From: Citrobacter freundii
GTDB lineage: Bacteria > Pseudomonadota > Gammaproteobacteria > Enterobacterales > Enterobacteriaceae
DNA length: 64,000 nucleotides
Direction: 5' to 3'
NCBI RefSeq assembly: GCF_029717145.1
Contig: NZ_CP099222.1
Location: 1,674,001 to 1,738,000 of the forward strand
Shown: positions 9,843 through 43,071 of the stretch, piece after piece
Numbering within the stretch: position 1 is the stretch's first letter
Layout: every line of letters begins with the position of its first letter
Made by a program: the position numbers and the translations under genes
The notes under the pieces: model-generated
The model's database searches: none
Told to the model about the DNA's origin: nothing
What the model saw: only the letters and a program-made list of their open reading frames with translations

Positions 9843-9932
9843 CCTGTTGCCTCACTTTTATCGTTTTAACAAGTGTATGCCAGGAATGGGTTTATGGCGT
9901 AAGAACTGACCGAAAGCGCGGACGTTAAACGT

Positions 9933-9957
9933 AAAAAGCCGCGATTTGCGGCTTTTT
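9933..9957. terminator. Terminator downstream of artJ, likely bidirectional
   Basis: AAAAAGCCGC, a 5-nt loop, then GCGGCTTTTT gives a GC stem flanked by A5 on one side and T5 on the other, so it can stop transcription in either direction. It lies 16 nt past the artJ stop. The 90 nt between it and the yegS start contain the left junction of the relocated block. Confidence 0.85.
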
Positions 9958-9972
9958 CAGGTAAGGCAGGGA

Positions 9973-10704
9973 TTACTGCGGGAACCACTGATCGCTGATT
10001 TTTTGATAGGTACCGTCAGCTTTAATGGCGGCCAGCGCGGTGTTCAGTTTTTCCAGCAGCGCGGTGTTATCCGGGCGAACGGCAATGCCAAGGCCGGTGC
10101 CGAAGTATTGCGGGTCAGTTACTTTGTCCGTTGCTACGCCTAACTGCGGATTGGTTTTCAGCCACTCGTTAACTACGGCAGTGTCGCCAAATACGCCATC
10201 AATACGCCCGTTTTTCAGGTCAATGATCGCATTCTGGTAGCTGTCGTACGCCACGGTTTTCACTTCAGGATGTTTATCCTGCAGGTATTTCTGGTGCGTG
10301 GTGCCGTTTTCCATGCCGATACGTTTGCCTTTCAAATCAGCAAAGGTTTTATAGGTGTCTTTTTTCGCAATGACCAGCGCTGAGTTGGCATAGTAGGGCT
10401 GAGTAAAGGAGACCTGCTTACTACGTTCTGGCGTGATGTCCATACCGGAAATCACCGCATCGTATTTTTTGAATTTCAGCGCGGGGATCAGGCTGTCGAA
10501 CGCATGATTAGTAAAAGTACAGTCAGCCTGCATTTGTTTGCACAATGCTGAAGCCAGGTCGATGTCAAAACCAACAATTTTATTGCTGGCATCCAACGAT
10601 TCGAATGGCGGGTAGGTTGCTGAGACACCGAAATTGATTTTATCAGCAGCAGAGGCGCCGGTGGCGAAGGTAGCAAGTAATGCGGCCAGGACTAACTTTT
10701 TCAT
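9973..10704 (-). CDS. artJ: Arginine-binding periplasmic protein ArtJ
   Basis: 243 residues, the E. coli length, starting at MKKLVLAALL; seven in-frame upstream codons lack support. A signal peptide of about 19 residues (GASA-ADK) leads into an SBP family 3 fold with the conserved start FGVSATYPPFES and the GMDITPERSKQV segment. ArtJ binds L-arginine with high affinity and feeds the ArtQMP importer. It is transcribed separately from artPIQM, as in E. coli, and has two ARG boxes upstream. Confidence 0.96.
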   Translation of the reverse strand: MKKLVLAALLATFATGASAADKINFGVSATYPPFESLDASNKIVGFDIDLASALCKQMQADCTFTNHAFDSLIPALKFKKYDAVISGMDITPERSKQVSFTQPYYANSALVIAKKDTYKTFADLKGKRIGMENGTTHQKYLQDKHPEVKTVAYDSYQNAIIDLKNGRIDGVFGDTAVVNEWLKTNPQLGVATDKVTDPQYFGTGLGIAVRPDNTALLEKLNTALAAIKADGTYQKISDQWFPQ

Positions 10705-10773
10705 GGTGGAACTCCCGTCTGTCAATCTTATGATGATTCACCGTGTCTGCGGCGTTGATTTACAATGCCATTT

Positions 10774-10812
10774 AATGAATTTGTATGCAATAAAAATGAT
10801 TAAATATTTTAT
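10774..10812 (-). promoter_or_regulatory. Tandem ARG boxes (ArgR) upstream of artJ
   Basis: Two 18-bp boxes separated by 3 bp, the canonical ArgR spacing. The first, 10774-10791, reads AATGAATTTGTATGCAAT and matches the TGAAT-N4-ATTCA core at nearly all positions; the second, 10795-10812, is weaker. ArgR repression of artJ is known in E. coli, which supports the call. Confidence 0.7.
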
Positions 10813-10883
10813 GTGGAATAAAAAAAAGCGGACAGTCCAGAGACATGTCCGCCTTTACTATTCAGCTTTATGCAGTTATTGAC

Positions 10884-11552
10884 TTAATTGCGGTGTTCAA
10901 ACGCCAGTGCTTTACGCTCGATTAAGCGCATCATCAACGTCAGCAGGCCGTTAACAATCAGATAAATCACGCCCGCCGCGCCGAAGACCATGACGTCATA
11001 GGTACGACCATACAACAGCTGGCTGTAACCCATGACTTCCATCAGCGTGATGGTGTAGGCCAGGGAGGTACTTTTGAACACCAGCACCACTTCGTTGGAG
11101 TACGAGGAGAGGGCGCGTTTAAAGGCGTACGGCAGCAAGATGGCCAGCGTATCTTTCTTGCTCATCCCCAATGCACCACAGGATTGCCACTGACCTTCCG
11201 GGATTGCGCGAATAGCGCCGTAGAACAGCTGCGTGGTATACGCGGCACTGTTTAACGACAGCGCAATCAAGGCGCACAGCCAGGGTTCTGACAGCAGATG
11301 CCAGAGGACCGGATACTCCTGCAGCGCGGGAAACTGCCCCGGACCGTAGTAGATCAGGAAGATTTGCACCAACAGCGGCGTACCGGTAAACAGCGTAATG
11401 TAGGCGCGTACCAGCCACACCAGCACCGGAGTTTTCAGCGTCAGGATGACGGTGAAAATCAGCGCCATGACCAGCGCAACCACGATGGAGGCAACCGTCA
11501 ACGTCAGGCTGGTATGCAGCCCTTTCATCAGTTCTGGTAAATACTCAAGCAT
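10884..11552 (-). CDS. artM: Arginine ABC transporter permease ArtM
   Basis: 222 residues, the E. coli length; inner-membrane subunit of the polar amino acid ABC family. Membrane helices begin at about residue 15, and the cytoplasmic coupling loop near residue 135 reads PEGQWQSCGALGMSKKD. With ArtQ it forms the heterodimeric channel. Its start overlaps the artQ stop by 1 nt (both at 11552), and it is the last gene of artPIQM. Confidence 0.96.
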   Translation of the reverse strand: MLEYLPELMKGLHTSLTLTVASIVVALVMALIFTVILTLKTPVLVWLVRAYITLFTGTPLLVQIFLIYYGPGQFPALQEYPVLWHLLSEPWLCALIALSLNSAAYTTQLFYGAIRAIPEGQWQSCGALGMSKKDTLAILLPYAFKRALSSYSNEVVLVFKSTSLAYTITLMEVMGYSQLLYGRTYDVMVFGAAGVIYLIVNGLLTLMMRLIERKALAFEHRN

Positions 11553-12268
11553 CAGCCCGGTCTCCGCTCAAAACGTGTCGCGCGCAGGTCAATGCGTTTG
11601 AGAATGTACTGACTCAACAGCGTTATCACCAGATAAATGGCCGCCGCCACGATGTACCAGGTAAACGGCTCCTGAGTACGCGTGGCAATGCTTTTGGTTT
11701 GCAGCATCAGATCGTTGACGCTGATCAGGCTTACCAGCGCGGTATCTTTCAGCAAAACCAGCCACTGGTTACCCAGTCCCGGCAGGGCATGACGCCACAT
11801 TTGCGGCATCACCAGACGAAAGAAGATCGCGGTTTTGGACAGCCCTAGCGCCTGACCAGACTCCCATTGCCCGAGCGGGACGGCTTTCAGTGCGCCACGC
11901 AGCGTTTGCGACGCATAGGCCGCATACAGCAATGACAGCGCAATGACGCCGCACAGGAACGGACTGACGTCGAAGTTTTCGATCTCCATCTGCACCGGGA
12001 TCTGCACGATGCCAAGATTTATCGTAAACCCATCGGCCAGCGTCAGCAGCAACTGGGAGGAACCGAAATAGATAAACAGAACCACCAGAATTTCCGGCAG
12101 TCCGCGCAGGAGCGTCACCAGGGCTGAACCCGTCCATGCCACTGGACGCCATTTAGCAGACTCCCAGACGGCAAACAACATTGCGAGAGCCAGGCCAATG
12201 ATCAGCGCACAAACGGCAAGGCCGACGGTCATCCCGGCGGCGCTTGCTAAAGGAAAAAATTCATTCAT
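11552..12268 (-). CDS. artQ: Arginine ABC transporter permease ArtQ
   Basis: 238 residues, the E. coli length. Inner-membrane HisM-type permease with five or so hydrophobic helices and the coupling loop [18 protein letters not shown] at about residue 135. It pairs with ArtM. It follows artI by 6 nt and overlaps artM by 1 nt, indicating coupled translation in the artPIQM operon. Confidence 0.96.
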
Positions 12269-12274
12269 CTAATA

Positions 12275-13006
12275 TTACTTCTGGAACCATTTGTTATAGA
12301 TGGTTTCGTACGTCCCATCTTTCTTCACTTTTTCCAGCGCAGCATTGAATTTCTGCTGCAGCTCGGTATTGCCCTGGCGCATGGCGATGCCCAGACCGGT
12401 ACCGAAGTAATCTTTATCGGTGACTTTATCGCCAACGGCGGCCAGTTTCGGATTGTCCTTCAGCCATTCGGTCACGACAGCGGTATCACCAAAGACGCCA
12501 TCAATACGCCCGTTCTGCAGGTCGAGTTTGGCATTCTGGTAGCTGTCATACGGGACGGTGGTGACTTCCGGATGTTTATCCATGATGAATTTCTGGTGCG
12601 TGGTGCCGTTTTGTACGCCCACTTTCTTGCCTTTCAGCTGGTCAATGCTGGTGTATTTACCCTGTTGACCAACAAACAACGCGGAGTTGTCATAGTAAGG
12701 CGTAGTGAACAACACCTGTTTTTCACGCTCCGGCGTGATGTCCATACCGGCCATTACCGCGTCAAAACGGCGGAATTTCAGGCTTGGGATCAGGCTGTCG
12801 AAAGCCTGGTTAGTGAACGTACAGGTGGCGTCGATCTCTTTACACAGCGCATTTGCCAGGTCAACGTCAAAACCCACGATGTTGTTATTAGCATCAATGG
12901 ATTCAAACGGAGGATAAGACGCTTCGGTAGCGAAGCGAATGGTTTGGGCTGCGGTAGCGGAAAGGCTAAAACCTGCGATTAGCGCGGCAATCAGAACTTT
13001 TTTCAT
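12275..13006 (-). CDS. artI: Arginine transporter periplasmic binding protein ArtI
   Basis: 243 residues from MKKVLIAALI, the E. coli length; the frame extends 39 codons upstream into the artP region, but those codons lack a ribosome site. The signal peptide ends near residue 19 (ATAA-QT). The SBP family 3 features are the same as in ArtJ (ATEASYPPFES, AGMDITPERE). In E. coli its ligand is less certain than that of ArtJ. Lies 16 nt after artP. Confidence 0.95.
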   Translation of the reverse strand: MKKVLIAALIAGFSLSATAAQTIRFATEASYPPFESIDANNNIVGFDVDLANALCKEIDATCTFTNQAFDSLIPSLKFRRFDAVMAGMDITPEREKQVLFTTPYYDNSALFVGQQGKYTSIDQLKGKKVGVQNGTTHQKFIMDKHPEVTTVPYDSYQNAKLDLQNGRIDGVFGDTAVVTEWLKDNPKLAAVGDKVTDKDYFGTGLGIAMRQGNTELQQKFNAALEKVKKDGTYETIYNKWFQK

Positions 13007-13022
13007 TGTATTGTCCCGAATC

Positions 13023-13751
13023 TTAGTGAGAGAGATAGTTTTTAAACGCTTCGGTTTGCGGGTTGGCAAAGCAGCTCGCATTCCCAAACTCGACGATATG
13101 ACCGTTTTCCATATACACCACACGACTGGCCGTTTTACGGGCGACTTCCACTTCGTGGGTGACGATCACCTGAGTAATATTGGTTTCTGCCAGCTCACGA
13201 ATGATGCTGACGATTTGTGCGGTAATTTCCGGGTCAAGCGCTGCGGTCGGTTCATCAAACAGCAGCACCTGTGGCTCCATCATTAACGCGCGGGCAATGG
13301 CCACACGCTGTTGCTGGCCGCCGGAAAGATGCAGTGGGTAACGATCGCTATAGGGCTTCAGTCGCAGACGTTCCAGCAGCTTCTCGGCACGCGCCAGCGC
13401 CTGGTCCTTGCTCAGACCCAGCACGCGGCAGGGCGCTTCGATCAGGTTCTGCTGCACAGTAAGATGCGGCCAAAGATTGTATTGCTGAAAGACCATGCCC
13501 ACGTTCTGACGCAGTTCGCGAATGGCTTTGTCAGAAGGTGTTTTCGTGAAGTCGAAACGGTTACCGGCAATAGAGAGCGTGCCCGAACGCGGCATCTCAA
13601 GCAGGTTGAGTACGCGCAGTAGCGAGCTTTTCCCGGCTCCACTTGGGCCAAGTAACACCAGTGTTTCGCCCTGAGGGCAATCCAGCGTGATATCGAACAG
13701 CGCCTGATGTGCGCCGTAGAAGCAGTTAATGCCGTTTAATTGAATACTCAT
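13023..13751 (-). CDS. artP: Arginine transporter ATP-binding protein ArtP
   Basis: 242 residues from [13 protein letters not shown], the E. coli length. Walker A is GPSGAGKSS near residue 36, the Q-loop is in [10 protein letters not shown], the signature is LSGGQQQR, and Walker B is [12 protein letters not shown] with a following VTHEVEVA switch histidine. It powers the ArtQM permease and is the first gene of artPIQM. Confidence 0.96.
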
Positions 13752-13812
13752 TGACACTCGTATACTGGCAGTCTGATAGCTATTGAAGCCGCAGATACTA
13801 CCTTTGACAGAA

Positions 13813-13851
13813 TAGTTATGCAATATTTATGCGTTAAAAGTTAAATGCAAA
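13813..13851 (-). promoter_or_regulatory. Possible ARG boxes upstream of artP
   Basis: Two AT-rich 18-bp stretches (13813-13830 and 13834-13851) with 3-bp spacing occupy the expected position about 60-100 nt upstream of artP. The match to the ArgR core is only partial (about 9 of 14 for the better box). The call leans on known ArgR control of artP in E. coli. Confidence 0.35.
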
Positions 13852-13907
13852 CCGCATTCTTCTCTAAACATAGCACAAAATAGCGGGGTCACCAGTGGGC
13901 AAGAATA

Positions 13908-13940
13908 ATTGTCGGCATTCTATGCAGAATGCCAGACAAT
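13908..13940 (-). terminator. Strong hairpin downstream of ybjP
   Basis: ATTGTC-GGCATTCT, loop ATGC, then AGAATGCC-A-GACAAT pairs over 14 bp with a single bulge. On the minus strand it lies about 38 nt past the ybjP stop and is followed by TATTCTT, a weak U tract, so it is a plausible terminator insulating ybjP from the artP promoter. Confidence 0.6.
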
Positions 13941-13977
13941 TTATGGGGTTTATGATTTGAACGAATGAATGGCGGGA

Positions 13978-14493
13978 TTAACGGTTTTCGACAGACTGGC
14001 GCAGCGTCCCGGCTGGCGCATGTACACTGCCACCCAGATAGCGAACATCATCCACGACCCAGCACTGGCCTTCACGGATCATCAGTACTTCATCACGCCA
14101 GGTTTGATTACCCTGCTTAAGCTCTACGCGCAGCGGAATGTTACGTGCATCACTATTCGGAATGGTCGAGGCGCTGGCGACACTGGCGCTGTCCGGTAAG
14201 GTGGTGCGGCTGGAGAAGGGATCGCTGGTCAGCAGCTCGCGGTGCGAGTTATCGCGGCTGGCATCGGTCAGCAATTTCGCCAGGTTGTCACTTAAGTACG
14301 GACGCAGGGCGGTGATGTCGTTGCTACGATGCTGAATGCGGTAATCATAGAACTGTTGTGCCACGCTGTCTGGCCCACCTTCCACGCAAGCGCCGCTACG
14401 CGGGCCGTTGTCTTTATAAGCCGGAGTAACGGTGGTACAGGCGCTGAGAAGAAGTGCACAGGGGACCAACAGAGAGAGTTTCGAGTAGCGCAT
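13978..14493 (-). CDS. ybjP: Lipoprotein YbjP
   Basis: 171 residues, the E. coli length. The lipobox LLSAC puts the acylated cysteine at residue 19, followed by TT rather than Asp, predicting sorting to the outer membrane. The remainder is a DUF3828-type soluble domain ending with the GQCWVVDDVRYLGG segment. Function is unknown; E. coli ybjP mutants have been linked to envelope phenotypes only loosely. It follows the art operon as in E. coli, but ybjQ, normally next, is displaced by the csp-phytase insertion. Confidence 0.93.
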   Translation of the reverse strand: MRYSKLSLLVPCALLLSACTTVTPAYKDNGPRSGACVEGGPDSVAQQFYDYRIQHRSNDITALRPYLSDNLAKLLTDASRDNSHRELLTSDPFSSRTTLPDSASVASASTIPNSDARNIPLRVELKQGNQTWRDEVLMIREGQCWVVDDVRYLGGSVHAPAGTLRQSVENR

Positions 14494-15035
14494 AATGATT
14501 TCCTTATTAGCTTTCTACTAATAGTATTCTACGATGAAAAATTCTATCCTTTCAATGACTGTGTAATCGATTAAAACTTTGTTTTTACTTGCATAAATTC
14601 GCAAATTTCACCGACTGGTACATCTGTGGCTATTGACTGCTTACCTCGGTTCAGTATATCAAACTGCGGCATGATGTTGTCGCCAAGGATGCTCCCTATA
14701 GTGTATAGACCATCCACGTATCTGCATGCTTATTTACGAGGCAACAAAATGTGGAAGCCGGACTGCGACGGTATGTATAAGTGCACAATGGCGGAGCAGT
14801 CCTTAGGCTATCAGGGTATCCGGATGGCTAAAATAAGGGTTGATTAATTCCTGGGCTCATGCGTTAATAGTTGAGTCGGTTTGAATAATAGACGATTTAC
14901 AAAGTAGTTTACTTCCGCAGTTCTCATTTTCAGGTTTATCCATTTATCCCTTCTTTGAGTCACTCCGCTAAGCACTAAGTCGATTCTGTAATAAAACCAA
15001 ATATGCCGAAGGGCTCAAATTAAGGAATAAAATAT
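14494..15035 (+). other. Gene-poor stretch containing the leader of the cold-shock gene
   Basis: 542 nt without a convincing gene. The last ~150 nt resemble a CspA-family 5' leader: it is long and untranslated, and just before the start carries GCCGAAGGGCTC (15003-15014) and an AAGGA ribosome site, like the GCCGAAAGGCAC element of cspA-type leaders. A 32-codon reading frame (14749-14847) with an ACGAGG upstream is possible but unsupported. I could not place the promoter. Confidence 0.4.
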
Positions 15036-15248
15036 ATGTCTAATAAAATGACGGGTTTAGTTAAGTGGTTTAATCCTGAGAAAGGTTTTGGATTCATCAC
15101 GCCCAAAGATGGTAGCAAAGATGTGTTTGTGCATTTTTCTGCTATCCAAAGTAACGACTTTAAAACGCTGAATGAAAATCAGGAAGTCGAGTTTAGCGTG
15201 GAGCAGGGACCTAAAGGCCCATCCGCTGTTAATGTTGTGGCGCTCTAA
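15036..15248 (+). CDS. CspA-family cold-shock protein (CspI/CspG-like)
   Basis: 70 residues, one OB-fold cold-shock domain with both RNA-binding motifs: KGFGFI (RNP1) at about 20-25 and VFVHFSAI (RNP2) at about 33-40. By recalled sequence it is closest to E. coli CspI and CspG (the [14 protein letters not shown] and SNDFKTL segments), which are cold-inducible RNA chaperones. It has a long CspA-type leader and is followed after 10 nt by ymcF, then gnsA. This is the arrangement around E. coli cspG and, in Qin prophage, cspI. In E. coli none of these lies between ybjP and ybjQ, so the cassette is an insertion here. Confidence 0.92.
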
Positions 15249-15258
15249 GGTAACTATT

Positions 15259-15447
15259 ATTACTAATCATATTCACTTTCGCTGCCCATGTTGCCATGGT
15301 TCGCAGTACAGAACATCGAGCTTCGATGTGACTGAGGGAAATCCGTTTGGCGCGAAATGTATTTTTTGCAAATCTAAAATGATTACATTTGATAATGTTG
15401 CAATGTACATTCAGTCCGGCCAGACTCCGCTGGATTTCAGAAAATAA
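15259..15447 (+). CDS. ymcF: YmcF/YnfQ-family cold-shock small protein with AUU start
   Basis: 62 residues, beginning ITNHIHFRCPCCHGS. No ATG, GTG or TTG opens this frame after the csp stop. AAGG at 15247-15250 is followed by ATT at 15256 and 15259; starting at 15259 gives exactly 62 residues, the length of E. coli YmcF, which proteomics showed to be made on cold shock from a non-AUG start downstream of cspG. Two CxxC knuckles (CPCC near residue 9, CIFC near 34) suggest a small zinc ribbon. Likely co-transcribed with the csp gene; a strong terminator follows. Function unknown. Confidence 0.72.
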   Translation: MTNHIHFRCPCCHGSQYRTSSFDVTEGNPFGAKCIFCKSKMITFDNVAMYIQSGQTPLDFRK

Positions 15448-15453
15448 TTTTTT

Positions 15454-15477
15454 AGGCCCCTTCAAGGGGCCTTTTTT
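15454..15477 (+). terminator. Rho-independent terminator after ymcF
   Basis: AGGCCCC, loop TTCAA, GGGGCCT, then T6. It is a textbook intrinsic terminator 6 nt past the ymcF stop, closing a csp-ymcF transcription unit. Confidence 0.92.
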
Positions 15478-15741
15478 AATGACTTAACAGATGACCCTAC
15501 CTGTTTATCGTGAGATCGTCATCTTGACGTTTTTGTCGTGATGCCAGAACATCGTTTACTGCGAACCTGCCTTCAGTCCCTCTCTTATCGTTTAATATGC
15601 AAACAATTTCTGGGTGTGTAATGACCAGTTGCGCCTGGGTTATTGAATCTTTTTATCGTATAGTTTATAGATATCCATGGTTATACAGATAATACTATCT
15701 ACTGGCGCGTTGATGCCGTTACAGACCAGAAGAGGTGCATA

Positions 15742-15915
15742 ATGGACGTCGAGAAATTAAAAAATAAAACTGAAGCGGATATATCTGAGTTCATCACAAA
15801 GAAAATTGTTGAGCTGAAGAAAAAGACCGGGAAAGAAGTTTCCGATATTCAGTTTATCGCTCGTGAGAAAATGACCGGGCTTGAAAGTTATGACATTAAA
15901 ATTAAGTTGATCTAA
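15742..15915 (+). CDS. gnsA: GnsA/GnsB-family small protein
   Basis: 57 residues, the length of E. coli GnsA and GnsB. The translation MDVEKLKNKTEADISEF continues with the family's KKTGKEVSDI and AREKMTGLESYDIKIKL segments. GnsA and GnsB were found as multicopy suppressors of secG and fabA defects that raise unsaturated fatty acid content; the molecular role is not known. An AGAGG ribosome site precedes the ATG at 15742. The linkage csp-ymcF-gns is the same as at E. coli cspG-gnsA. Confidence 0.88.
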   Translation: MDVEKLKNKTEADISEFITKKIVELKKKTGKEVSDIQFIAREKMTGLESYDIKIKLI

Positions 15916-15941
15916 TTTTCAAATACCATCCAGTATGCGTT

Positions 15942-15978
15942 AAAGCATCGCCGTCCAGCTGAGGCGGTGCTTTTTATT
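15942..15978 (+). terminator. Rho-independent terminator after gnsA
   Basis: AAAGCATCGCC (15942-15952) pairs with GGCGGTGCTTT (15963-15973) with one G-T wobble, followed by a T-rich run. It lies 26 nt past the gnsA stop. Confidence 0.88.
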
Positions 15979-15980
15979 TT

Positions 15981-16003
15981 TATAATTTCAAAATGAAATT
16001 ATA
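15981..16003. repeat. Perfect 10-bp inverted repeat upstream of the phytase gene
   Basis: TATAATTTCA, spacer AAA, TGAAATTATA. The AT-rich dyad overlaps nothing coding and sits about 200 nt upstream of the phytase start, right after the gnsA terminator. It could be a regulator binding site; no regulator can be assigned. The rest of the 16004-16200 leader shows no clear promoter to me. Confidence 0.6.
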
Positions 16004-16200
16004 AGTGTGATCTCTTCCGTGTGTGAACGAGGCGGTGGCAAAAGTGTGTGAATTTCAGCCGTACGCGATAACCCAGTATTTCATCCTGGTGGATATTTAT
16101 TATCACAGGCGTAGGATGATTTTGCTGTCGACAAGATAAGACGTTCGTCCTGTCGTGTGCGGGCTTCTGATTATTCATTAACGACGAGGTGGTGCTGGTA

Positions 16201-17499
16201 ATGAGTACACTGATCATTCGTTTATTGTTCTTAACGATTATATTGGCCCCTGTTTCATTACGCGCCGATGAACAGAGCGGAATGCAGCTTGAGCGTGTTG
16301 TCATCGTCAGTCGTCATGGCGTCAGGGCACCGACAAAGTTCACGCCGCTTATGCAGCAAGTCACTCCCGACCGCTGGCCGCAATGGGACGTTCCTCTGGG
16401 GTGGTTGACTCCTCGCGGCGGGGCACTCATTATTGAATTAGGACGGTATCAACGTTTACGCCTGGCGGACAAAGGTCTGCTGGATAATAAAACGTGTCCA
16501 ACGGCAGGGCAGGTCGCGGTCATTGCCGATAGCGATCAACGTACCCGTAAAACGGGTGAAGCATTCCTGGCAGGACTGGCCCCGGAATGTAAAGTACAGG
16601 TTCATTATCAACAAGATAAGTCAAAATCTGATCCCCTTTTTAATCCCATCAAGGCGGGGCAGTGTTCGCTGAACACATCGCAGGTGAAAGAGGCTATCCT
16701 GACCCGGGCTGGCGGAAGTCTTGATGAGTACACGCGCCACTACCAACCCGCATTTCAAGCCCTGGAACGGGTGTTAAATTTCTCCCAGTCAGAAAAGTGT
16801 CAAGCAGCTGGGCAGTCTGCACAGTGTACGCTAACCGACGTCTTACCTGCTGAACTCAAGGTCTCTCCTGAAAATGTATCGTTGTCAGGCTCATGGGGAC
16901 TGGCTTCAACCCTGACGGAAATCTTCCTGCTGCAACAAGCACAAGGGATGTCGCAGGTGGCCTGGGGGCGTATTCATGGCGATAAAGAATGGCGTACATT
17001 ATTAAGTCTGCACAATGCGCAGTTTGACCTTCTGCAGAAAACCCCGGAGGTTGCCCGTAGCAGGGCCACACCGTTACTTGATTTGATACGTACAGCACTC
17101 GTAACACAGGGGCCAACAGAAAATAAATACGCAATTCAGTTGCCCGTCTCTTTGTTGTTTATTGCGGGGCATGACACCAATCTTGCCAATATCAGCGGGG
17201 CATTAGGCCTTAACGTGTCTCTGCCCGGTCAGCCAGATAATACGCCGCCGGGTGGAGAGTTTGTTTTCGAAAGGTGGAAACGGGTCAGCGATCATTCTGA
17301 TTGGGTGCAGGTTTCTTTTATGTATCAGACATTGCAGGAAATGCGTGATATGCAACCTTTGTCGTTGCAATCGCCTCCCGGAAAAATTGTGCTGCCCTTA
17401 GCGGCCTGCGATGAGAAAAATACGCAGGGAATGTGCTCATTAAAAAATTTTTCTGCACTGATTGATTCCGTTCGCGTGTCCGAATGTGCTGAGAAATAA
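16201..17499 (+). CDS. appA: AppA-type periplasmic 6-phytase / acid phosphatase
   Basis: 432-residue histidine acid phosphatase. The signal peptide covers about residues 1-22 (SLRA-DEQ). The catalytic RHGVRAP motif is at 38-44, with H39 the phospho-accepting histidine, and the proton donor pair H324-D325 lies in IAGHDTNLAN. Eight or so cysteines in the mature protein fit periplasmic disulfides. It releases phosphate from phytate or other phosphomonoesters. From memory it is very like Citrobacter braakii phytase along its length, the main pointer to genus. An in-frame GTG at 16189 is possible, but MSTLIIRLL matches the family start and has AGGTGG upstream. E. coli appA sits elsewhere, in the appCB operon region. 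Confidence 0.93.
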   Translation: MSTLIIRLLFLTIILAPVSLRADEQSGMQLERVVIVSRHGVRAPTKFTPLMQQVTPDRWPQWDVPLGWLTPRGGALIIELGRYQRLRLADKGLLDNKTCPTAGQVAVIADSDQRTRKTGEAFLAGLAPECKVQVHYQQDKSKSDPLFNPIKAGQCSLNTSQVKEAILTRAGGSLDEYTRHYQPAFQALERVLNFSQSEKCQAAGQSAQCTLTDVLPAELKVSPENVSLSGSWGLASTLTEIFLLQQAQGMSQVAWGRIHGDKEWRTLLSLHNAQFDLLQKTPEVARSRATPLLDLIRTALVTQGPTENKYAIQLPVSLLFIAGHDTNLANISGALGLNVSLPGQPDNTPPGGEFVFERWKRVSDHSDWVQVSFMYQTLQEMRDMQPLSLQSPPGKIVLPLAACDEKNTQGMCSLKNFSALIDSVRVSECAEK

Positions 17500-17618
17500 T
17501 ATTTTTACTGCATCATTTCGGTCATGTTGAAAATTAAACAATCGGAACCTTTCAATGATAGGGTATCGGTTCGATAATGCTTTAAGGCAGCGTTGTTAGC
17601 GTAATAAGGAGATATACC

Positions 17619-32829: not shown

Positions 32830-32839
32830 TCGTTATCGA

Positions 32840-33535: not shown

Positions 33536-33904
33536 AACCACCTCAATTAAAAGTTCCGGGTTCGTTTTCCTGGCCCGGTATTTCATCGCTAAAAGGGACG
33601 ATGATTAAAGAGCGTGTATTCTAGAAAAAAATATCATCCCTTTGCCACTTAAATTAATGAAAAAATTTGATTTAAGGCAATATGATGTGAATCCTTTTTG
33701 GTGTTGAGGTGAATACAGCATAGTTCAATTAGCGAAAAGCAAATGGTTGTCCCCTGTAATAATATCTGGCGTGAATTTAAAGAAGAATATTCTTATTTTT
33801 TATTGTTCTGATTTCTGTCTGTGAGATCTCAGGTGTTCTGCACGCCAGCTTGACGCTATACTCCTGATAACTTGAAGGAAAAAGTTAGCATTTCCGGAGG
33901 CTAT
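33536..33904. other. Intergenic region between aqpZ and ybjD
   Basis: 369 nt, AT-rich, between two divergent genes, so it must hold both promoters. I see no recognisable operator, RNA gene or repeat in it. The only clear signal is the CCGGAGG ribosome site just before ybjD. Confidence 0.6.
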
Positions 33905-35563
33905 ATGATTCTCGAACGCGTTGAGATTGTTGGGTTTCGTGGTATTAATCGGCTGTCGTTGATGCTGGAGCAGAACAACGTGCTGATTGGGGAGAACGCG
34001 TGGGGTAAGTCCAGCCTGCTGGATGCACTGACCTTGCTGCTGTCACCGGAATCGGACTTGTATCATTTTGACCGTGAAGACTTCTGGTTTCCGCCGGGCG
34101 ATATCCAGGGCCGGGAACATCATCTACATATTATTCTTACTTTTCGTGAATCGCAGCCGGGGCGTCATCGGGTGCGCCGCTATCGTCCGCTGGAAGCCTG
34201 CTGGTCTCCCTGTCACGATGACTATCACCGTATTTTCTATCGTCTGGAGGGCGAGTGTGCGGATGACGGTAGCGTCCTGACGCTGCGCAGTTTCCTTGAT
34301 GGCGAAGGGCGTCCGCTCGCGCTCGACAATATTAACGACCTGGCTTGCCACCTCGTGCGTCTGATGCCGGTGTTGCGACTGCGCGATGCGCGCTTTATGC
34401 GGCGTATCCGCAACGGCACGGTGCCGAATATTGCGGAAGTCGAAGTGACCGCCCGCCAGCTGGATTTCCTGGCGCGTGAACTGGCAACCCGGCCACAAAA
34501 TCTGACGGACGGCCAGATCCGCCAGGGGCTATCGGCGATGGTACAACTGCTGGAACACTACTTTTCTGAGCAAGGAGCGGGCCAGTCTCGCTATCGTCTG
34601 ATGCGTCGGCGTTCCAATAATGAGCAGCGTAGCTGGCGTTATCTGGATATTATCAACCGGATGATTGACAAGCCTGGCGGACGTACGCATCGCGTGATCC
34701 TGCTGGGGCTGTTTTCAACGTTGCTCCAGGCCAAAGGTACGCTCAGGCTGGACAAAGACGCCCGTCCTTTGCTGTTGGTCGAAGATCCGGAAACGCGTTT
34801 GCACCCCATCATGTTGTCAGTGGCCTGGCAGTTGCTGAATCTGTTACCTCTGCAGCGTGTGGCGACTACCAACTCCGGTGAATTGCTGTCGCTTACCCCC
34901 GTTGAACATGTGGTGCGCCTGGTGCGTGAATCTTCCCGTGTCGCCGCCTGGCGTTTGGGACCAGGCGGTCTGAGCGCGGAAGACGGGCGGCGGATTGCCT
35001 TTCATATTCGCTTTAATCGCGCATCGTCATTATTTGCCCGCTGCTGGCTGCTGGTGGAAGGCGAAACGGAAACCTGGGTGATCAACGAACTGGCTCGTCA
35101 GTGCGGTCATCACTTTGATGCCGAAGGGATTAAAGTGATTGAATTTGCCCAGTCCGGGCTTAAGCCGCTGGTGAAATTTGCCCGGCGGATGGGAATAGAG
35201 TGGCACGTGTTGGTTGATGGCGATGAAGCCGGGAAAAAATATGCTGCCACCGTACGCAGTCTGTTGAGTAACGACCGTGAAGAAGAACGCGATCACCTGA
35301 CAATGCTGCCCGCGCTGGATATGGAGCACTTTATGTATCGCCAGGGTTTCTCAGACGTCTTTCACCGGGTGGCACAAATTCCGGAAAACGTGCCGATGAA
35401 TATGCGTAAAATTATCTCCAAGGCGATTCATCGTTCGTCAAAACCGGATCTGGCGATTGAAGTGGCGATGGAAGCAGGGCGGCGCGGTGTTGATGCCGTT
35501 CCCACCCTGCTGCGAAAAATGTTTTCGCGCGTGCTGTGGCTGGCACGCGGACGTGCTGATTAG
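33905..35563 (+). CDS. ybjD: YbjD, OLD-family nuclease-like ATPase
   Basis: 552 residues from MILERVEIVGFRG, the E. coli length; a CCGGAGG ribosome site selects this start over one 11 codons earlier. The N-terminal ABC/SMC-type ATPase domain has Walker A GENAWGKSS at residues 30-38 and Walker B in LLLVEDPETRLHP. The C-terminal Toprim domain has VEGETETWVI and a DGDEAGKKYA metal motif, the two-part layout of OLD nucleases. Function in enterobacteria is not established; relatives are anti-phage or DNA-processing enzymes. It ends 4 nt into the convergent ybjX. Confidence 0.94.
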   Translation: MILERVEIVGFRGINRLSLMLEQNNVLIGENAWGKSSLLDALTLLLSPESDLYHFDREDFWFPPGDIQGREHHLHIILTFRESQPGRHRVRRYRPLEACWSPCHDDYHRIFYRLEGECADDGSVLTLRSFLDGEGRPLALDNINDLACHLVRLMPVLRLRDARFMRRIRNGTVPNIAEVEVTARQLDFLARELATRPQNLTDGQIRQGLSAMVQLLEHYFSEQGAGQSRYRLMRRRSNNEQRSWRYLDIINRMIDKPGGRTHRVILLGLFSTLLQAKGTLRLDKDARPLLLVEDPETRLHPIMLSVAWQLLNLLPLQRVATTNSGELLSLTPVEHVVRLVRESSRVAAWRLGPGGLSAEDGRRIAFHIRFNRASSLFARCWLLVEGETETWVINELARQCGHHFDAEGIKVIEFAQSGLKPLVKFARRMGIEWHVLVDGDEAGKKYAATVRSLLSNDREEERDHLTMLPALDMEHFMYRQGFSDVFHRVAQIPENVPMNMRKIISKAIHRSSKPDLAIEVAMEAGRRGVDAVPTLLRKMFSRVLWLARGRAD

Positions 35564-36510
35564 TGGCGGAACATCAGCGACAGCTGTTCGTGGATAGTGT
35601 CCAGTAATTGATAGCGGCGGCGATATTCCGCCCGCTTCTTACTGGCAATCTCCGACTCGCTTTTTCGTGCCAGCGTGCGTGGAATATGGTAATACCCGCG
35701 GCTGTCGCATTCACCGCCAACCGACGCCCAAAACGCATTATAGTCGGAGAGAATAACCTTATTTTTATCATGGTAACGTGGGCTGCGAAAGATATGCTGT
35801 TCATTGCTGACAGCCATCACGTTTTCTATATTCAACCGTTCGGCTAAACGACAAATCGCTTCCATTACAATCCGTTTTGGGAAAATTCCGTGACAGGACT
35901 TCGTTGCTTTTTGTATTGCTTCGTGAGGCAACAGGCGGCTTCCTCCTTGCAATCCACCAATAAAAACAGTGGCTTTCTCTTCATACTCACAAATGGTAAA
36001 GGTTATTTCCGCCAACGTCTCACCGACACTGTTACGCAAAAGTAGTGTGCTTTCACCTTCTTTATCCAGGGTAATTAATGCCGTTAAAACTAGGGTGAAT
36101 AATTCGCCCTCTTTGCCCTCAATTTGTGCAAGTTGTAACCCTTCAGGGCTTAAATACCCGTTTAATTCTGCAGATGAAAATGAATGGCGGATAAAGTTGT
36201 AGTGAAACCGCACAGCATCCAGCTTCATTTTTCGATCGAGGTTTAATGCAAGATACGGTCGATGAAGACGGACCGGTAGCCGGGGCTGGAGGGTGAGCAG
36301 GCTATCTAATTCCGGCCACTGTGCCAGTTCAGTCATCCATTCACGGGTGAGGTGGGGTATTAGTAAAGAACGCCAGATAAACTTACGGCGAAAACTCCGT
36401 TGATCCCAGCATTGTCCGGGACGTAATTGGCCACGACTTAGGTTGTAAAAAAGGTTAAAGCTGGAGACCGGTTTGCTGGAAAGAAAAGTACTTTTAGTTA
36501 GTTGACTCAT
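35560..36510 (-). CDS. ybjX: YbjX, VirK/DUF535 family protein
   Basis: 316 residues; E. coli YbjX is about 330. The DUF535 domain runs through most of the protein with conserved segments GGLQGG, ATKSCHGIFPKRIVMEAIC and DYNAFWASVGG. Family members (Salmonella VirK and YbjX, Shigella VirK) are PhoPQ-linked and tied to antimicrobial peptide resistance or virulence-factor surface display; the mechanism is unknown. I did not find a convincing PhoP box. Convergent with ybjD. Confidence 0.93.
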   Translation of the reverse strand: MSQLTKSTFLSSKPVSSFNLFYNLSRGQLRPGQCWDQRSFRRKFIWRSLLIPHLTREWMTELAQWPELDSLLTLQPRLPVRLHRPYLALNLDRKMKLDAVRFHYNFIRHSFSSAELNGYLSPEGLQLAQIEGKEGELFTLVLTALITLDKEGESTLLLRNSVGETLAEITFTICEYEEKATVFIGGLQGGSRLLPHEAIQKATKSCHGIFPKRIVMEAICRLAERLNIENVMAVSNEQHIFRSPRYHDKNKVILSDYNAFWASVGGECDSRGYYHIPRTLARKSESEIASKKRAEYRRRYQLLDTIHEQLSLMFRH

Positions 36511-36679
36511 AATATAAATCCGATGGAAGTCTGAGACGTATTTGTAGTAATTTCAGCACAGCGGATCTTAACCATTCATCAATAACTCTGTTATTCTTGG
36601 CGCTTTTCAACGGCTATTTATTTATCGTTGACGTTTAACACTCCACTCTGGTGGACGTTTTGGGGGAATTGGGACATTT

Positions 36680-37795
36680 ATGAAGCTCAAGGGAAAAATC
36701 AAAAAACGCTATTTTATCTTCGCCGTCATCATTATTGTGGCGGTAATTGCACTTTGGCGAATGCTTAATGCGCCATTGCCGCAATATCAAACATTAATTG
36801 TGCGACCCGGCGATCTTCAGCAAAGTGTATTGGCAACCGGGAAGCTGGATGCGCTGCGCAAAGTTGACGTCGGGGCGCAGGTGAGCGGGCAGTTAAAAAC
36901 GCTGTCCGTAGCGATTGGCGATAAAGTTAAAAAAGATCAGCTGCTTGGCGTCATTGATCCTGAGCAGGCGCAAAACCAGATCAAAGAAGTCGAAGCCACG
37001 CTGATGGAATTACGAGCCCAACGTATGCAGGCCGAGGCCGAGTGGAAACTGGCGCGGGTGACGCTTTCTCGCCAGCAACAGCTTGCGAAAACGCAGGCGG
37101 TTTCGCAGCAGGATCTCGATACAGCAGCCACGCAGATGGCGGTCAAACAGGCGCAAATTGGCACCATTGATGCACAAATTAAGCGTAATCAGGCTTCTCT
37201 TGATACGGCAAAAACGAACCTCGACTACACCCGTATTGTGGCGCCAATGGCTGGCGAAGTGACGCAAATTACCACCCTGCAGGGGCAAACCGTGATCGCC
37301 GCCCAGCAGGCACCTAACATTCTTACGCTGGCTGACATGAGCACCATGCTGGTTAAAGCCCAGGTTTCCGAGGCAGATGTCATTCACCTGCATCCGGGGC
37401 AAAAAGCCTGGTTTACCGTGCTGGGCGATCCGCAGACGCGCTACGAAGGTACGCTCAAAGATGTGCTGCCGACGCCTGAGAAAGTGAACGATGCGATTTT
37501 CTACTATGCCCGCTTCGAAGTACCCAACCCGAAAGGGATCCTGCGCCTGGATATGACCGCGCAGGTACATATCCAACTGACGGACGTCAAAAACGTCCTG
37601 ACCATCCCGCTGGCGGCGCTGGGCGAGCCTGTTGGCGACAACCGCTATAACGTCAGGCTGCTGCGCAACGGCGAAACCCGCGAGCGCGAAGTTTCTATCG
37701 GCGCCCGTAACGATACCGATGTGGAAATCGTCAAAGGGCTGGAAGAGGGTGATGAAGTCATCATCAGCGAGGCGAAACCCGGAGCGGCACAATGA
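36680..37795 (+). CDS. macA: Macrolide exporter periplasmic adaptor MacA
   Basis: 371 residues, the E. coli length. An N-terminal membrane anchor ([18 protein letters not shown], ~residues 12-29) is followed by barrel-sandwich halves, a long alpha hairpin (about 95-175) and the beta-barrel and membrane-proximal domains. It links MacB to TolC and stimulates MacB ATPase. The GGGGGAATT ribosome site precedes it. It overlaps macB by 4 nt (ATGA). Confidence 0.96.
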
Positions 37796-39738
37796 CGGCG
37801 TTGCTTGAGCTGAGCCATATCCGCCGCAGCTACCCGTCAGGCGAAGGGCAGGTAGAGGTGCTAAAGGACGTCTCTTTGAGCATCCAGGCGGGTGAAATGG
37901 TGGCGATTGTCGGGGCGTCTGGTTCGGGGAAATCGACGCTGATGAATATCCTCGGCTGTCTGGATAAGCCTTCCAGCGGCACGTATCGGGTTGCGGGGCG
38001 TGACGTCTCCACGCTCGATAGTGATGCGTTAGCGCAACTGCGGCGCGAGCATTTCGGTTTTATTTTTCAGCGCTATCATTTGCTCTCGCATTTAACGGCG
38101 GCGCAAAACGTGGAGGTGCCAGCGGTCTACGCCGGAACCGAACGCAAGCAGCGTCTGGCGCGGGCACACGCGTTACTGCAGCGCCTGGGGTTGGGCGATC
38201 GTGTGGATTATCAACCTTCCCAGCTTTCCGGTGGCCAGCAGCAGCGCGTCAGTATTGCGCGTGCGTTGATGAACGGCGGACAGGTCATTCTCGCAGACGA
38301 ACCTACCGGTGCGCTGGACAGTCATTCCGGCGAAGAGGTGATGGCCATTCTGCATCAGCTGCGCGATCGCGGGCATACGGTGATTATTGTCACCCACGAC
38401 CCGCAGGTTGCGGCGCAGGCTGAACGGGTGATTGAAATTCGTGACGGTGAAATTGTGCGCAATCCACCGTCGCACAAAACAGCCAGCGGACACGGCATAA
38501 CCGAACCTACGGTAACGACGGCATCCGGCTGGAGTCAGTTTGTCAGTGGTTTTCGCGAGGCGCTGACCATGGCCTGGCTGGCCATGGCTGCCAACAAGAT
38601 GCGTACGTTGCTCACTATGCTGGGCATCATTATTGGTATCGCGTCGGTGGTATCGATTGTGGTGGTCGGCGATGCAGCAAAACAGCTGGTACTGGCCGAT
38701 ATTCGCGCTATCGGCACCAACACAATTGATATCTATCCCGGCAAAGATTTTGGTGACGATGACCCGCAATATCAGCAAGCGCTGAAGTATGACGATCTGA
38801 CGGCAATTCAGAAGCAACCGTGGGTCAGCTCCGTGACGCCTGCCGTGTCGAAGAACCTACGGCTGCGTTATGGCAACATCGACGTGGCAGCCAGCGCTAA
38901 TGGTGTGAGCGGCGATTACTTCAATGTCTATGGTATGACGTTCAGTGAGGGAAACACCTTTAACACCGAGCAGTTAAATGGTCGGGCGCAGGTGGTGGTG
39001 CTGGACAGTAACACCCGACGCCAGTTGTTCCCGAATAAAGCGAAGGTGGTGGGTGAGGTCGTGCTGGTCGGCAATATGCCGGCCACCGTGATTGGTGTGG
39101 CGGAAGAGAAGCAGTCGATGTTTGGCAGCAGCAAAATTCTGCGGGTCTGGCTGCCTTACAGCACCATGTCCGGGCGCATTATGGGGCAATCGTGGCTGAA
39201 CTCTATTACCGTTCGCGTGAAGGAAGGTTTTGACAGCACTCAGGCGGAGCAACAGCTTACCCGACTGCTGTCGTTGCGGCATGGTAAAAAAGATTTCTTC
39301 ACCTGGAATATGGATGGCGTTCTGAAAACCGCTGAAAAAACCACGCGCACCTTACAGTTGTTCCTGACGTTGGTGGCGGTCATTTCGCTGGTGGTGGGCG
39401 GGATCGGTGTGATGAATATTATGCTGGTTTCCGTCACCGAACGAACGCGCGAGATTGGCATTCGTATGGCGGTTGGCGCGCGCGCCAGTGATGTACTGCA
39501 GCAGTTTTTGATTGAAGCGGTGCTGGTGTGTCTCGTTGGTGGGGCGCTCGGTATCAGTTTATCGATGCTGATTGCTTTCACGCTACAGCTTTTCCTGCCC
39601 GGTTGGGAAATCGGATTCTCACCTTTCGCCCTGTTGACGGCTTTCTTGTGTTCAACGGCGACCGGGATTTTGTTCGGCTGGCTCCCGGCGCGCAACGCGG
39701 CAAGGCTGGACCCGGTGGATGCCCTGGCGCGGGAATAA
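37792..39738 (+). CDS. macB: Macrolide ABC exporter MacB
   Basis: 648 residues, the E. coli length. The N-terminal ATPase has Walker [10 protein letters not shown] near 42, signature LSGGQQQR and Walker [13 protein letters not shown]. Four membrane helices follow: one at about 275-295, a large periplasmic domain (~300-520), then three near the C-terminus (from [17 protein letters not shown]). With MacA and TolC it forms a tripartite mechanotransmission pump exporting macrolides, enterotoxin STII and other substrates. Confidence 0.97.
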
Positions 39739-39761
39739 CGTGTTGTATTGAAAAAGAAATA

Positions 39762-39790
39762 AAAATGCCAGCTCTGGGGGCTGGCATTTT
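39762..39790. terminator. Bidirectional terminator between macB and cspD
   Basis: AAAATGCCAGC (39762-39772) and GCTGGCATTTT (39780-39790) form an 11-bp perfect stem with A and T tracts, serving the convergent macAB and cspD. Confidence 0.92.
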
Positions 39791-39822
39791 GTCTGCAGGA
39801 TGTACACAATGAGACAGAAGAG

Positions 39823-40047
39823 CTATGCGACAGCTTCTGCTTCAAGTACGGGCACAATAAGACTGGCGTGATTGCCTTTTGGACCCTGGTGGACATCAAA
39901 CTGGACAGATTGTCCGGCTTTTAGCGTTCTGTAACCATCCATCTGAATGGTGGAGTAATGAGCGAAGATATCTTCGCCGCCGCCTTCAGGGCAGATGAAA
40001 CCGAACCCTTTGGCATTGTTGAACCACTTAACAGTACCCGTTTCCAT
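39823..40047 (-). CDS. cspD: Cold-shock-like protein CspD
   Basis: 74 residues starting METGTVKWFNN, the E. coli length; the open frame extends far upstream without support. It has a single cold-shock domain with KGFGFI and IFAHYSTI RNA/DNA-binding motifs and a CspD-type acidic tail. CspD is made in stationary phase rather than on cold shock and inhibits replication as a dimer. Divergent from clpSA. Confidence 0.96.
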   Translation of the reverse strand: METGTVKWFNNAKGFGFICPEGGGEDIFAHYSTIQMDGYRTLKAGQSVQFDVHQGPKGNHASLIVPVLEAEAVA

Positions 40048-40369
40048 ACTTCGACATCCTTCGTAAATCTTATATAAGTAAGATGGAATGAACCGGTGGC
40101 GGAGTGGGGGCTGTTCAAAACCTCGCCAACTCTCGAGACTACAATTTAGAGAAATCAGGCGGGGCGTCAAGCGCCAGACGGGCGGAATCGGGTAAAAATG
40201 CATCAAAATTTGAAGCAGTTAACGCTATTGTCGGATATGTGACAGATGTCGCGGATGACACTGATAGATGATAGTTATCTAATAATTGAGGTAGATTGAT
40301 TGTGCGCATAGGCTCTTGTCAGCGGCAAGTTATTCTGCCGGTAACCGTAACTGAAGATGACGACTGACA
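40048..40369. other. Divergent promoter region of cspD and clpS
   Basis: 322 nt between divergent cspD and clpS. It must contain both promoters; I see no clear operator, RNA gene or repeat beyond short dyads of doubtful value near 40268-40280. Confidence 0.55.
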
Positions 40370-40690
40370 ATGGGTAAGACGAACGACTGGCTGGATTTCG
40401 ATCTGCTGGCGGAAGATAAATTGCGCGACGCGCTAAAACCGCCATCTATGTATAAAGTGATATTAGTCAATGATGATTACACTCCGATGGAGTTTGTTAT
40501 TGACGTGTTACAAAAATTCTTTTCTTATGATGTAGAACGTGCAACGCAACTGATGCTTGCTGTTCACTATCAAGGTAAGGCTATTTGCGGCGTATTTACC
40601 GCCGAAGTGGCTGAGACCAAAGTGGCGATGGTGAACAAATATGCGAGGGAGAACGAGCATCCGTTGCTATGTACGCTGGAAAAAGCCTGA
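40370..40690 (+). CDS. clpS: ClpA adaptor ClpS
   Basis: 106 residues, the E. coli length. Recognises N-degrons and delivers them to ClpAP. The flexible N-terminus (~1-25) is followed by the alpha/beta core, with the substrate-pocket residues in [19 protein letters not shown] (N34, D35, M40) and a conserved histidine in [11 protein letters not shown]. Lies 29 nt before clpA. Confidence 0.98.
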
Positions 40691-40719
40691 ATCAGGCATA
40701 AACATTGGGGGAGGTGCCT

Positions 40720-42996
40720 ATGCTCAATCAAGAACTGGAACTCAGTTTAAACATGGCTTTCGCCAGAGCGCGCGAGCACCGACATGAGTTTATGACCGTC
40801 GAGCACTTGTTACTGGCGTTGCTCAGTAACCCATCGGCCCGCGAAGCGCTGGAAGCGTGTTCTGTGGACCTGGTGGCGCTCCGTCAGGAACTCGAAGCCT
40901 TCATTGAACAAACCACTCCCGTATTGCCTGAGAGCGAAGAAGAGCGCGACACGCAGCCGACGTTGAGTTTTCAGCGTGTGCTGCAACGCGCGGTCTTCCA
41001 TGTTCAGTCCTCGGGGCGTAATGAAGTGACGGGCGCCAATGTACTGGTTGCCATCTTCAGCGAGCAGGAATCCCAGGCGGCCTATCTGCTGCGCAAGCAT
41101 GAAGTTAGCCGACTGGACGTGGTGAATTTTATTTCTCATGGCACGCGCAAAGACGAACCGAGTCAGTCTGCTGACTCCGGTAATCAGCCAAATAACGAAG
41201 AGCAAGCTGGCGGGGAGGATCGTATGGAGAACTTCACCACTAACCTTAACCAGCTCGCTCGCGTGGGTGGGATTGACCCGCTCATTGGCCGCGAAAAAGA
41301 GCTGGAGCGGGCTATTCAGGTACTGTGCCGTCGTCGTAAAAACAACCCGCTGCTGGTCGGTGAGTCTGGCGTCGGTAAAACCGCGATTGCCGAAGGTCTG
41401 GCCTGGCGTATTGTCCAGGGCGATGTGCCGGAAGTGATGGCCGACTGCACGCTTTACTCCTTGGATATCGGTTCGCTGCTGGCGGGCACCAAATACCGCG
41501 GGGATTTCGAAAAACGCTTTAAAGCGCTGCTGAAACAGCTGGAACAGGATACCAACAGCATTCTGTTTATCGATGAGATCCACACCATTATCGGTGCGGG
41601 TGCGGCATCGGGCGGCCAGGTGGATGCTGCAAACCTGATCAAACCGCTGCTCTCAAGCGGTAAGATCCGCGTGATTGGCTCAACCACTTACCAGGAGTTC
41701 AGTAACATTTTCGAGAAAGACCGTGCGTTAGCGCGTCGCTTCCAGAAAATTGATATTACGGAACCGTCGGTGGAAGAGACCGTGCAGATCATCAACGGGC
41801 TGAAACCGAAATACGAAGCGCACCATGACGTTCGCTACACCGCCAAAGCGGTACGTGCGGCGGTGGAACTGGCGGTGAAATACATCAACGATCGTCACCT
41901 GCCGGATAAAGCGATTGACGTGATCGATGAAGCGGGCGCGCGTGCGCGTCTGATGCCGATCAGTAAGCGTAAGAAAACCGTCAACGTGGCGGATATCGAG
42001 TCCGTGGTAGCCCGCATAGCGCGGATCCCGGAGAAGAGCGTGTCGCAAAGCGATCGCGATACGCTGAAGAATCTGGGTAACCGTCTGAAGATGCTGGTAT
42101 TCGGACAGGATAAAGCCATTGAGGCGCTGACCGAAGCCATCAAGATGAGCCGTGCTGGTCTGGGCCACGAGCACAAACCTGTGGGCTCGTTCCTGTTTGC
42201 CGGTCCGACCGGTGTCGGGAAAACCGAAGTGACGGTGCAGTTGTCTAAAGCGCTGGGCATTGAACTGCTGCGTTTTGATATGTCTGAGTATATGGAACGC
42301 CACACCGTCAGCCGTCTGATTGGTGCGCCTCCGGGATATGTCGGCTATGACCAGGGTGGTTTGCTGACCGATGCGGTCATTAAGCATCCGCACGCGGTGC
42401 TGCTGCTGGATGAAATTGAGAAAGCGCACCCGGATGTCTTCAACCTGCTGCTGCAGGTGATGGACAACGGTACGCTGACCGACAATAACGGGCGCAAAGC
42501 GGATTTCCGCAACGTGGTGCTGGTGATGACCACCAACGCCGGGGTGCGTGAAACCGAACGTAAATCGATTGGCCTTATTCATCAGGACAACAGTACTGAT
42601 GCGATGGGGGAAATCAAAAAAGTATTTACGCCGGAATTCCGTAACCGTCTCGACAACATTATCTGGTTCGATCACCTCTCTACCGAGGTAATCCATCAGG
42701 TGGTCGATAAATTTATTGTTGAGCTTCAGGTGCAGTTGGATCAGAAAGGCGTCTCTCTGGAAGTGAGTCAGGAAGCGCGTGACTGGCTGGCAGAGAAAGG
42801 CTATGACCGTGCAATGGGCGCACGTCCGATGACGCGTGTAGTCCAGGATAACCTGAAGAAACCACTGGCCAACGAACTGTTGTTCGGTTCGCTGGTTGAC
42901 GGCGGACAGGTGACCGTAGCGCTGGATAAAGAGAAAAATGAGCTGACCTATGGCTTCCAGAGTGCACAAAAGCACAAGCCAGAAGCCGCACATTAA
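40720..42996 (+). CDS. clpA: ATP-dependent Clp protease ATPase subunit ClpA
   Basis: 758 residues from [11 protein letters not shown], the E. coli length; a TTG five codons earlier is open but the GGGGGAGG ribosome site fits 40720. The N-domain (~1-140) binds ClpS. D1 has Walker A GESGVGKT and D2 has GPTGVGKTE. The IGL loop (KSIGLIHQ) docks on ClpP, which is encoded elsewhere. ClpA unfolds substrates for ClpP. In E. coli serW and infA follow; here CyaR follows instead, after a terminator. Confidence 0.98.
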
Positions 42997-43014
42997 TCTT
43001 CTATCGCTTCACAG

Positions 43015-43040
43015 ACCGGGCGTAATGCCCGGTTTTTTTT
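43015..43040 (+). terminator. Rho-independent terminator after clpA
   Basis: ACCGGGC, loop GTAAT, GCCCGGT and T8. It lies 18 nt past the clpA stop and marks the last base of clpA-linked sequence before the CyaR locus. Confidence 0.93.
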
Positions 43041-43071
43041 CGCCTGGTTTTCGGAAAGGTAGATTACACGC

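Follow-up and report, generated by a model that had tools for sequence, protein, structure and literature searches.

The sequence analysed here, a window of 64 kb (bases 1674001-1738000) from the 4,682,437-bp chromosome of a Citrobacter freundii strain, carries a long block of core genes, running from artJ to clpA, in the midst of the yeg region. Genes were named by comparison with the proteins of E. coli K-12 (tblastn; K-12 YegS, for instance, is 86% identical), and from left to right the window reads yegT, fbaB, other open reading frames (ORFs), yegS, artJ to clpA, cyaR, yegQ, two ORFs, baeR, baeS and mdtDCBA. The moved block (9973..42996) starts with artJ (9976-10704, minus strand), continues with artM-artQ-artI-artP-ybjP-ybjQ-amiD-ybjS-ybjT-ltaE-poxB and then hcr-hcp-lysO-aqpZ-ybjD-ybjX-macA-macB-cspD-clpS, and ends with clpA (40720-42993, plus strand). 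To its left lies yegS (8943..9842, in the gene map 8946-9842; minus strand), which occupies its own place in the yeg region, and to its right lie the gene of the small RNA CyaR (43075..43159, minus strand; Rfam RF00112, 106 bits) and yegQ, or trhP (43243..44604, in the gene map 43246-44604; minus strand). In K-12, rlmC-artJ...clpA-serW-infA is found at 0.90-0.93 Mb and yegQ-cyaR-yegS at 2.17 Mb, in agreement with an initial annotation, made from the letters alone, which had placed the block between yegS and cyaR-yegQ and had stated that E. coli keeps the two regions apart.

That annotation had also described the internal order and strands of the block as unchanged and the yeg order as intact on both flanks. 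The former holds for all 23 named genes, which keep their K-12 order and strands, but not for the gene content: the block measures 33.0 kb here versus 25.7 kb in K-12 because of lineage-specific additions at two places. Between ybjP and ybjQ (14875-17499) the additions are a cold-shock gene, whose thermoregulator leader is of the cspA type, and a gene for a branch-2 histidine phosphatase, neither of which is found at this place in E. coli K-12; the additions between poxB and hcr (24736-28693) encode, among others, an FAD-NAD(P)-binding protein, an Ail/Lom-type outer membrane protein and a 4-fold beta flower protein. The yeg order is intact overall, except that about 6.6 kb with other ORFs separates fbaB from yegS and that two ORFs separate yegQ from baeR.

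The distribution of the arrangement was studied in a genus sample of 17 genomes and a family sample of 295 genomes (four of them from the genus), of which 206 gave any match to the left-junction query and 185 to the right-junction query. The left-junction query has matches in all 17 genus genomes and is unbroken in 14, with 130-137 bp from yegS to artJ (the artJ stop codon counted); artJ and yegS are apart in G009, G012 and G016. The right junction (clpA|cyaR) is likewise unbroken in 14 of the 17, and is interrupted on the same contig by 7.5 kb in G008, 1.1 kb in G013 and 34 kb in G016; one genome (G004) is 99% identical at both junctions. Outside the genus no junction-spanning match occurs among the matches listed for the 295 family genomes, where spanning ones would rank first. 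The left junction is not a product of chance, since the same junction is present in 14 of the 17 genus genomes and since none of 5,426 E. coli genomes has a single place that covers 80% of the query.

The gene neighbourhoods of yegS and artJ give the polarity of the change. In 80 named loci the next upstream marker of yegS is cyaR in 65 cases (once beyond yegR), artJ in 8, a tRNA-Ser gene in 2 and none in 5. The old order is seen in C. amalonaticus, C. sedlakii, strain R56, Salmonella and those of the Escherichia loci in which the flank is visible; the new order is seen in C. gillenii, C. werkmanii, C. braakii and C. youngae ATCC 29220. At the original site rlmC and artJ are neighbours in all eight outgroup stretches read, with 0.2-3.7 kb between them, and clpA adjoins serW in six; in G277 clpA adjoins infA and a serW hit is absent, and in G248 there is no marker within 9 kb after clpA. 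The possibility, raised in the initial annotation, that close relatives all show this order as the ancestral state was therefore right with respect to the sharing, for the genus has the moved block, but wrong with respect to the polarity, as the old order persists outside it: the new order is derived, though of old date, and not peculiar to this genome. The position of the block thus marks Citrobacter sensu stricto as a derived trait passed on vertically, and it is a clean gene-order marker, separating that group from C. amalonaticus, C. sedlakii and strain R56. Within the genus, annotation by adjacency and comparisons of operons should accordingly expect artJ next to yegS and clpA next to cyaR.

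To follow the descent of the block we used a six-gene tree of the 17 genus members and seven outgroups, together with separate trees for the block and for its flanks. The genus is monophyletic with support 100 in the block tree and in the flank tree alike, which implies that the block was inherited by descent and argues against horizontal transfer. G006 and G013, which have the window's order, split first in the six-gene tree (support 89) and in the flank tree (support 98); the block tree puts them elsewhere, with support 62. G009, G012 and G016 form one nested clade (support 100 in the six-gene tree). In all three artJ abuts phoH, and in G012 and G016 yegS abuts a tRNA-Ser gene followed by ghrA (G009 reaches a contig end there); by its position this tRNA gene is serX, and in the C. 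freundii genome phoH-serX-ghrA are still together. The joins phoH-artJ and yegS-serX indicate that these three genomes bear one extra inversion, with cuts at artJ|yegS and phoH|serX. When the tRNA gene is read as serW, the three could be mistaken for a missing intermediate of the block move, but phoH lies upstream of artJ, and serW is located by rlmC there too (in G009 and G016 as seen up to the contig ends). That the window order preceded theirs is concluded from the tree and not from the reversal distances, which do not force it, as one of three shortest paths avoids the window order.

The breakpoints can be narrowed down to short intervals. On the left, between the region upstream of yegS and the 3' side of artJ, the ends of homology, judged by eye, delimit an interval of 9919..9932: the yegS-upstream homology that is common with G009, G012 and G016 runs to about 9918-9923 and the artJ-side homology starts from about 9931-9933, while in other genera the yegS side reaches 9922 (G287, G096) and the artJ side begins at 9932-9933 (G056, G058, G076). 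A terminator-like hairpin of artJ (9933..9957, minus strand), recognized by eye and with similar hairpins in the genus artJ alignment rows, was kept with the block; a consensus terminator scan of 9700-10100 reported none. On the right the clpA terminator (43013..43040, plus strand; found by terminator scan and aligned to R56) was kept with the block as well, and the ends of homology to R56 place the breakpoint between this terminator and cyaR at 43046..43070; in other genera the matches overlap slightly within 43044-43052, with the clpA side extending to 43052 (G157) and the cyaR side starting from 43044 (G173, G260). Both switches of homology fall inside the intervals that had been noted initially (9890-9935 and 43035-43075). 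The gaps of the window, i.e. 130 bp from yegS to artJ and 78 bp from clpA to cyaR, hold terminator or upstream sequence, and neither the ends of an element nor an integrase or a target duplication was found in them beside the block. At the old site, located via rlmC, the order is infA, 2.8 kb, serW, 140 bp, rlmC, so that rlmC is indeed joined to serW, a join that the annotation had proposed to look for, with the serW terminator on one side of the scar. A query with the serW-rlmC scar gave one match in 7 of the 17 genus genomes and two matches on the same contig, 0.1-21.6 kb apart, in 8; contig ends intervene in 2. The breakpoints are all intergenic and beside terminators, and no gene was broken.

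The reversal distance between the old and the new order, with rlmC and yegS as fixed ends, is 2, so that, as initially claimed, a single inversion cannot produce the arrangement from the E. coli order; there are two shortest routes, and every reversal in them includes the terminus. We consider it likely, with a probability of roughly 0.77, that the block changed replichore by two nested terminus-spanning inversions before the sampled species of Citrobacter sensu stricto diverged. A first inversion, with cuts at clpA|serW and cyaR|yegS, would have flipped the terminus and created clpA|cyaR and serW|yegS. A second, cutting about 26 kb further out at rlmC|artJ, would have turned the terminus back and created rlmC|serW and artJ|yegS. 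On balance the terminus and the intervening genes would be restored, only the block between the two left cuts would be left on the other replichore, and its orientation to the replication fork would be kept. This succession is one of two equally short routes. The order of the steps, the sequences that recombined, and two inversions rather than one excision and reinsertion are inferred, while the three new junctions, the single copy, the sharing across the genus and the kept fork orientation are observed. In the C. freundii chromosome dnaA lies at 397 and dif at 2306470 of 4682437; with oriC taken to lie near dnaA, artJ is reached by the fork ahead of clpA at either location, the old site and the window, which is what two terminus-spanning inversions require and what random reinsertion gives half the time. 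An inversion that is undone imprecisely would be a simple way for a core block to switch replichore while keeping its relation to the fork.

Inversions around the terminus have occurred elsewhere in the group. Ten terminus-region markers of the C. freundii genome were placed in eight genomes and dif was located separately; M8 was found only in G003 and G241, M10 was not found in G193 or G273, and M4 had doubtful distant places in three outgroups (G221, G193, G241) and was not found in G273, gaps that leave the seven elements of the reversal comparison untouched. One inner order is common to the outgroups G241, G193 and G273 and to the genus members G006 and G001. The C. freundii genome and G014 are one inversion of the whole inner segment away from it, and G003 is a different one away. 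The extra inversion of G009, G012 and G016 spans the terminus as well. Strain R56 (G221) is a direct example of the proposed route: between 1.67 and 2.97 Mb it carries two nested terminus-spanning inversions, with two segments swapped between the replichores. The strand of dif was considered as a means of telling two inversions from transposition but was discarded, as it varies within the genus and cannot decide: read along rlmC to yegS it is plus in G001 and G006 and minus in the C. freundii genome, G003 and G014 (G013, with dif on another contig, was left out), and it is minus in K-12 and plus in R56, G149, G273, G193, G253, G248 and G241. In Atlantibacter subterranea (G277; L219-L223) the yeg and ybj-art regions lie about 60 kb apart on one contig; the neighbours yegS-cyaR and rlmC-artJ are normal there, so that this is not an independent joining but another, different rearrangement.

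Several observations weigh against two inversions. Mirror symmetry about dif, examined by comparing the dif distances of the two left cuts with that of the right cut in six genomes with the old order, is only rough. In G193 and G273, which have the ancestral inner order, the roughly mirror-placed cuts rather speak for two inversions, the distances being 600/627 versus 623 kb and 605/673 versus 603 kb; elsewhere they are 593/619 versus 678-685 kb (R56), 665/691 versus 576-578 kb (K-12), 497/532 versus 618 kb (G241) and 546/592 versus 818 kb (G149). The mismatch thus spans 2 to 272 kb and amounts to 59-92 kb in R56, 87-115 kb in K-12, 86-120 kb in G241 and 226-272 kb in G149. (In the C. freundii genome, after a later inversion, 822 kb now separate the scar from dif, and 589-623 kb the block.) An intermediate with one inversion was found neither in the 17 genus genomes, nor among the matches listed for the 295 family genomes, nor in the 80 named loci. 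No repeat common to all three old breakpoints was found, with REP-like palindromes (repetitive extragenic palindromic sequences) seen by eye at two of the three sites, and reinsertion would by chance keep the fork orientation in half of the cases. Finally, G006 and G001 combine the moved block with the ancestral inner order, which also fits transposition without any inversion; with two inversions it means that the founding pair cancelled each other save for the block.

The alternative that profits from these points is excision and reinsertion, in which repeats flanking the block recombined and a circle was released that inserted between cyaR and yegS. The palindromes between rlmC and artJ (E. 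coli, G248) and between clpA and serW (R56, G149) are presumably of the REP or BIME (bacterial interspersed mosaic element) type, and in many genus members a REP-like pair, recognized by eye, lies in the scar between rlmC and serW, as repeat-by-repeat excision would leave; the inner order of G006 and G001 also agrees with it. Yet the process requires a matching site between cyaR and yegS, and none was seen in the old-order loci compared. Moreover, chance would, by a rough estimate, bring the block near the mirror position with its fork orientation kept in only a few per cent of cases, and the segments that lie on the other arm in the marker map (R56) are accounted for by inversions. We therefore regard excision and reinsertion as unlikely.

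A second copy of the block might instead have been gained between cyaR and yegS, by duplication or from another species, after which the original was lost; the end state would be the same, a single copy and a clean scar. The own genome was searched with two overlapping queries, together covering 8943-44000, of which the best 40 of 66 and 40 of 131 candidates were scored. There is one full copy of the block, and each query has otherwise only short matches, whose positions correspond to genes of ABC transporters, cold-shock proteins and Clp proteins and to a repeat element about 125 bp long. The second copy that the initial annotation had proposed to look for was not found, and neither was a remnant, among the scored matches, where a true second copy would rank among the first. 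Each of the 17 genus genomes has one artJ at 85% identity or more, the remaining match (69-72%) is the paralog artI, and block and flank genes recover the same genus clade, as noted above. Acquisition or duplication with loss of the original is therefore largely refuted and very improbable, and a duplication that retains the second copy is excluded; of the three routes named initially, two inversions fit best and transposition stands as the rival. A chimeric assembly, which had been named as a reason for doubt and for which nothing speaks beyond the unusual order, has a negligible probability and is ruled out by independent genomes, belonging to many species, that have the same junctions, in several cases on contigs of multiple megabases. 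The 125-bp element, at about 32600-32745 in the window, has at least 32 further matches around the chromosome.

With two nested inversions as the preferred explanation, the sequences at the cuts deserve attention. The 24 bases at the cyaR 3' end (43070..43093, minus strand) are identical to part of a 28-bp direct repeat that flanks the 34-kb insert between clpA and cyaR in G016 (C. youngae CCUG 30791; L077, L078). Six proteins of this insert match PHROGs (an integrase, a portal, a terminase, a tail sheath, another tail protein and a transcriptional regulator), and we take the gene set to be that of a P2-like prophage. As the repeat holds the cyaR 3' end, the latter serves for attachment. Of the 64 named loci in which cyaR is next to yegS, 17 have more than 500 bp between the two genes; in one outgroup genome (G273; L207 7495-8541) this gap holds a 348-residue ORF whose product may resemble a secreted glycosyltransferase effector. 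Beside serW, partial copies of the serW 3' end with its terminator are present in L199, L225, L226, L227, L096 and L098, and are perhaps footprints of past integrations. In E. coli NZ_AP045789.1 (L009 16773-19951) a phosphotransferase system (PTS)-sulfatase insert lies between rlmC and artJ, so that this breakpoint site takes up genes in E. coli too.

In both rearrangements that were traced down to their junctions, the block move and the later inversion of G009, G012 and G016, one cut lies where an RNA gene (cyaR, serW, serX) has its 3' end, a kind of place where elements integrate or leave footprints, and the two have the site upstream of yegS as a cut in common. The sequence that recombined may have come from integrated elements, but this is a guess, and no element was seen that the two cut sites share. 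The wider idea that recurrent flips use phage attachment places as hot spots, with roughly mirror-placed integrated elements driving repeated terminus inversions in Citrobacter, is doubtful.

A literature search, with most subscription journals outside its reach, found no description of the artJ-clpA move. As to its kind, PMC3072379 calls terminus-spanning inversions the commonest of the large rearrangements of enteric bacteria; one in C. rodentium is described as identical to one in S. Typhimurium LT2. As explained here, the present case resembles such inter-replichore inversions in having cuts in both replichores, in keeping the replication orientation and in being recurrent, and differs from them in that all that is left in the end is a single relocated block, with the terminus region restored, which a whole genus shares. 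For Yersinia, PMC2483231 describes inversions that reach from one replichore into the other, with an excess of symmetric ones, whose endpoints lie at equal distances from the origin. The inversions proposed for Citrobacter likewise have an end in either replichore, but they are one old pair of events read off the gene order, with a symmetry that is only rough. The annotation of the cryptic prophage PR-X of E. coli K-12 begins inside the cyaR 3' end, which identifies the place next to the right breakpoint as an integration site; unlike the block move, however, prophage insertion of this type does not shift artJ-clpA. The move of the block is thus a new and well-placed case of a well-known and ordinary kind of rearrangement, the terminus-spanning inversion.

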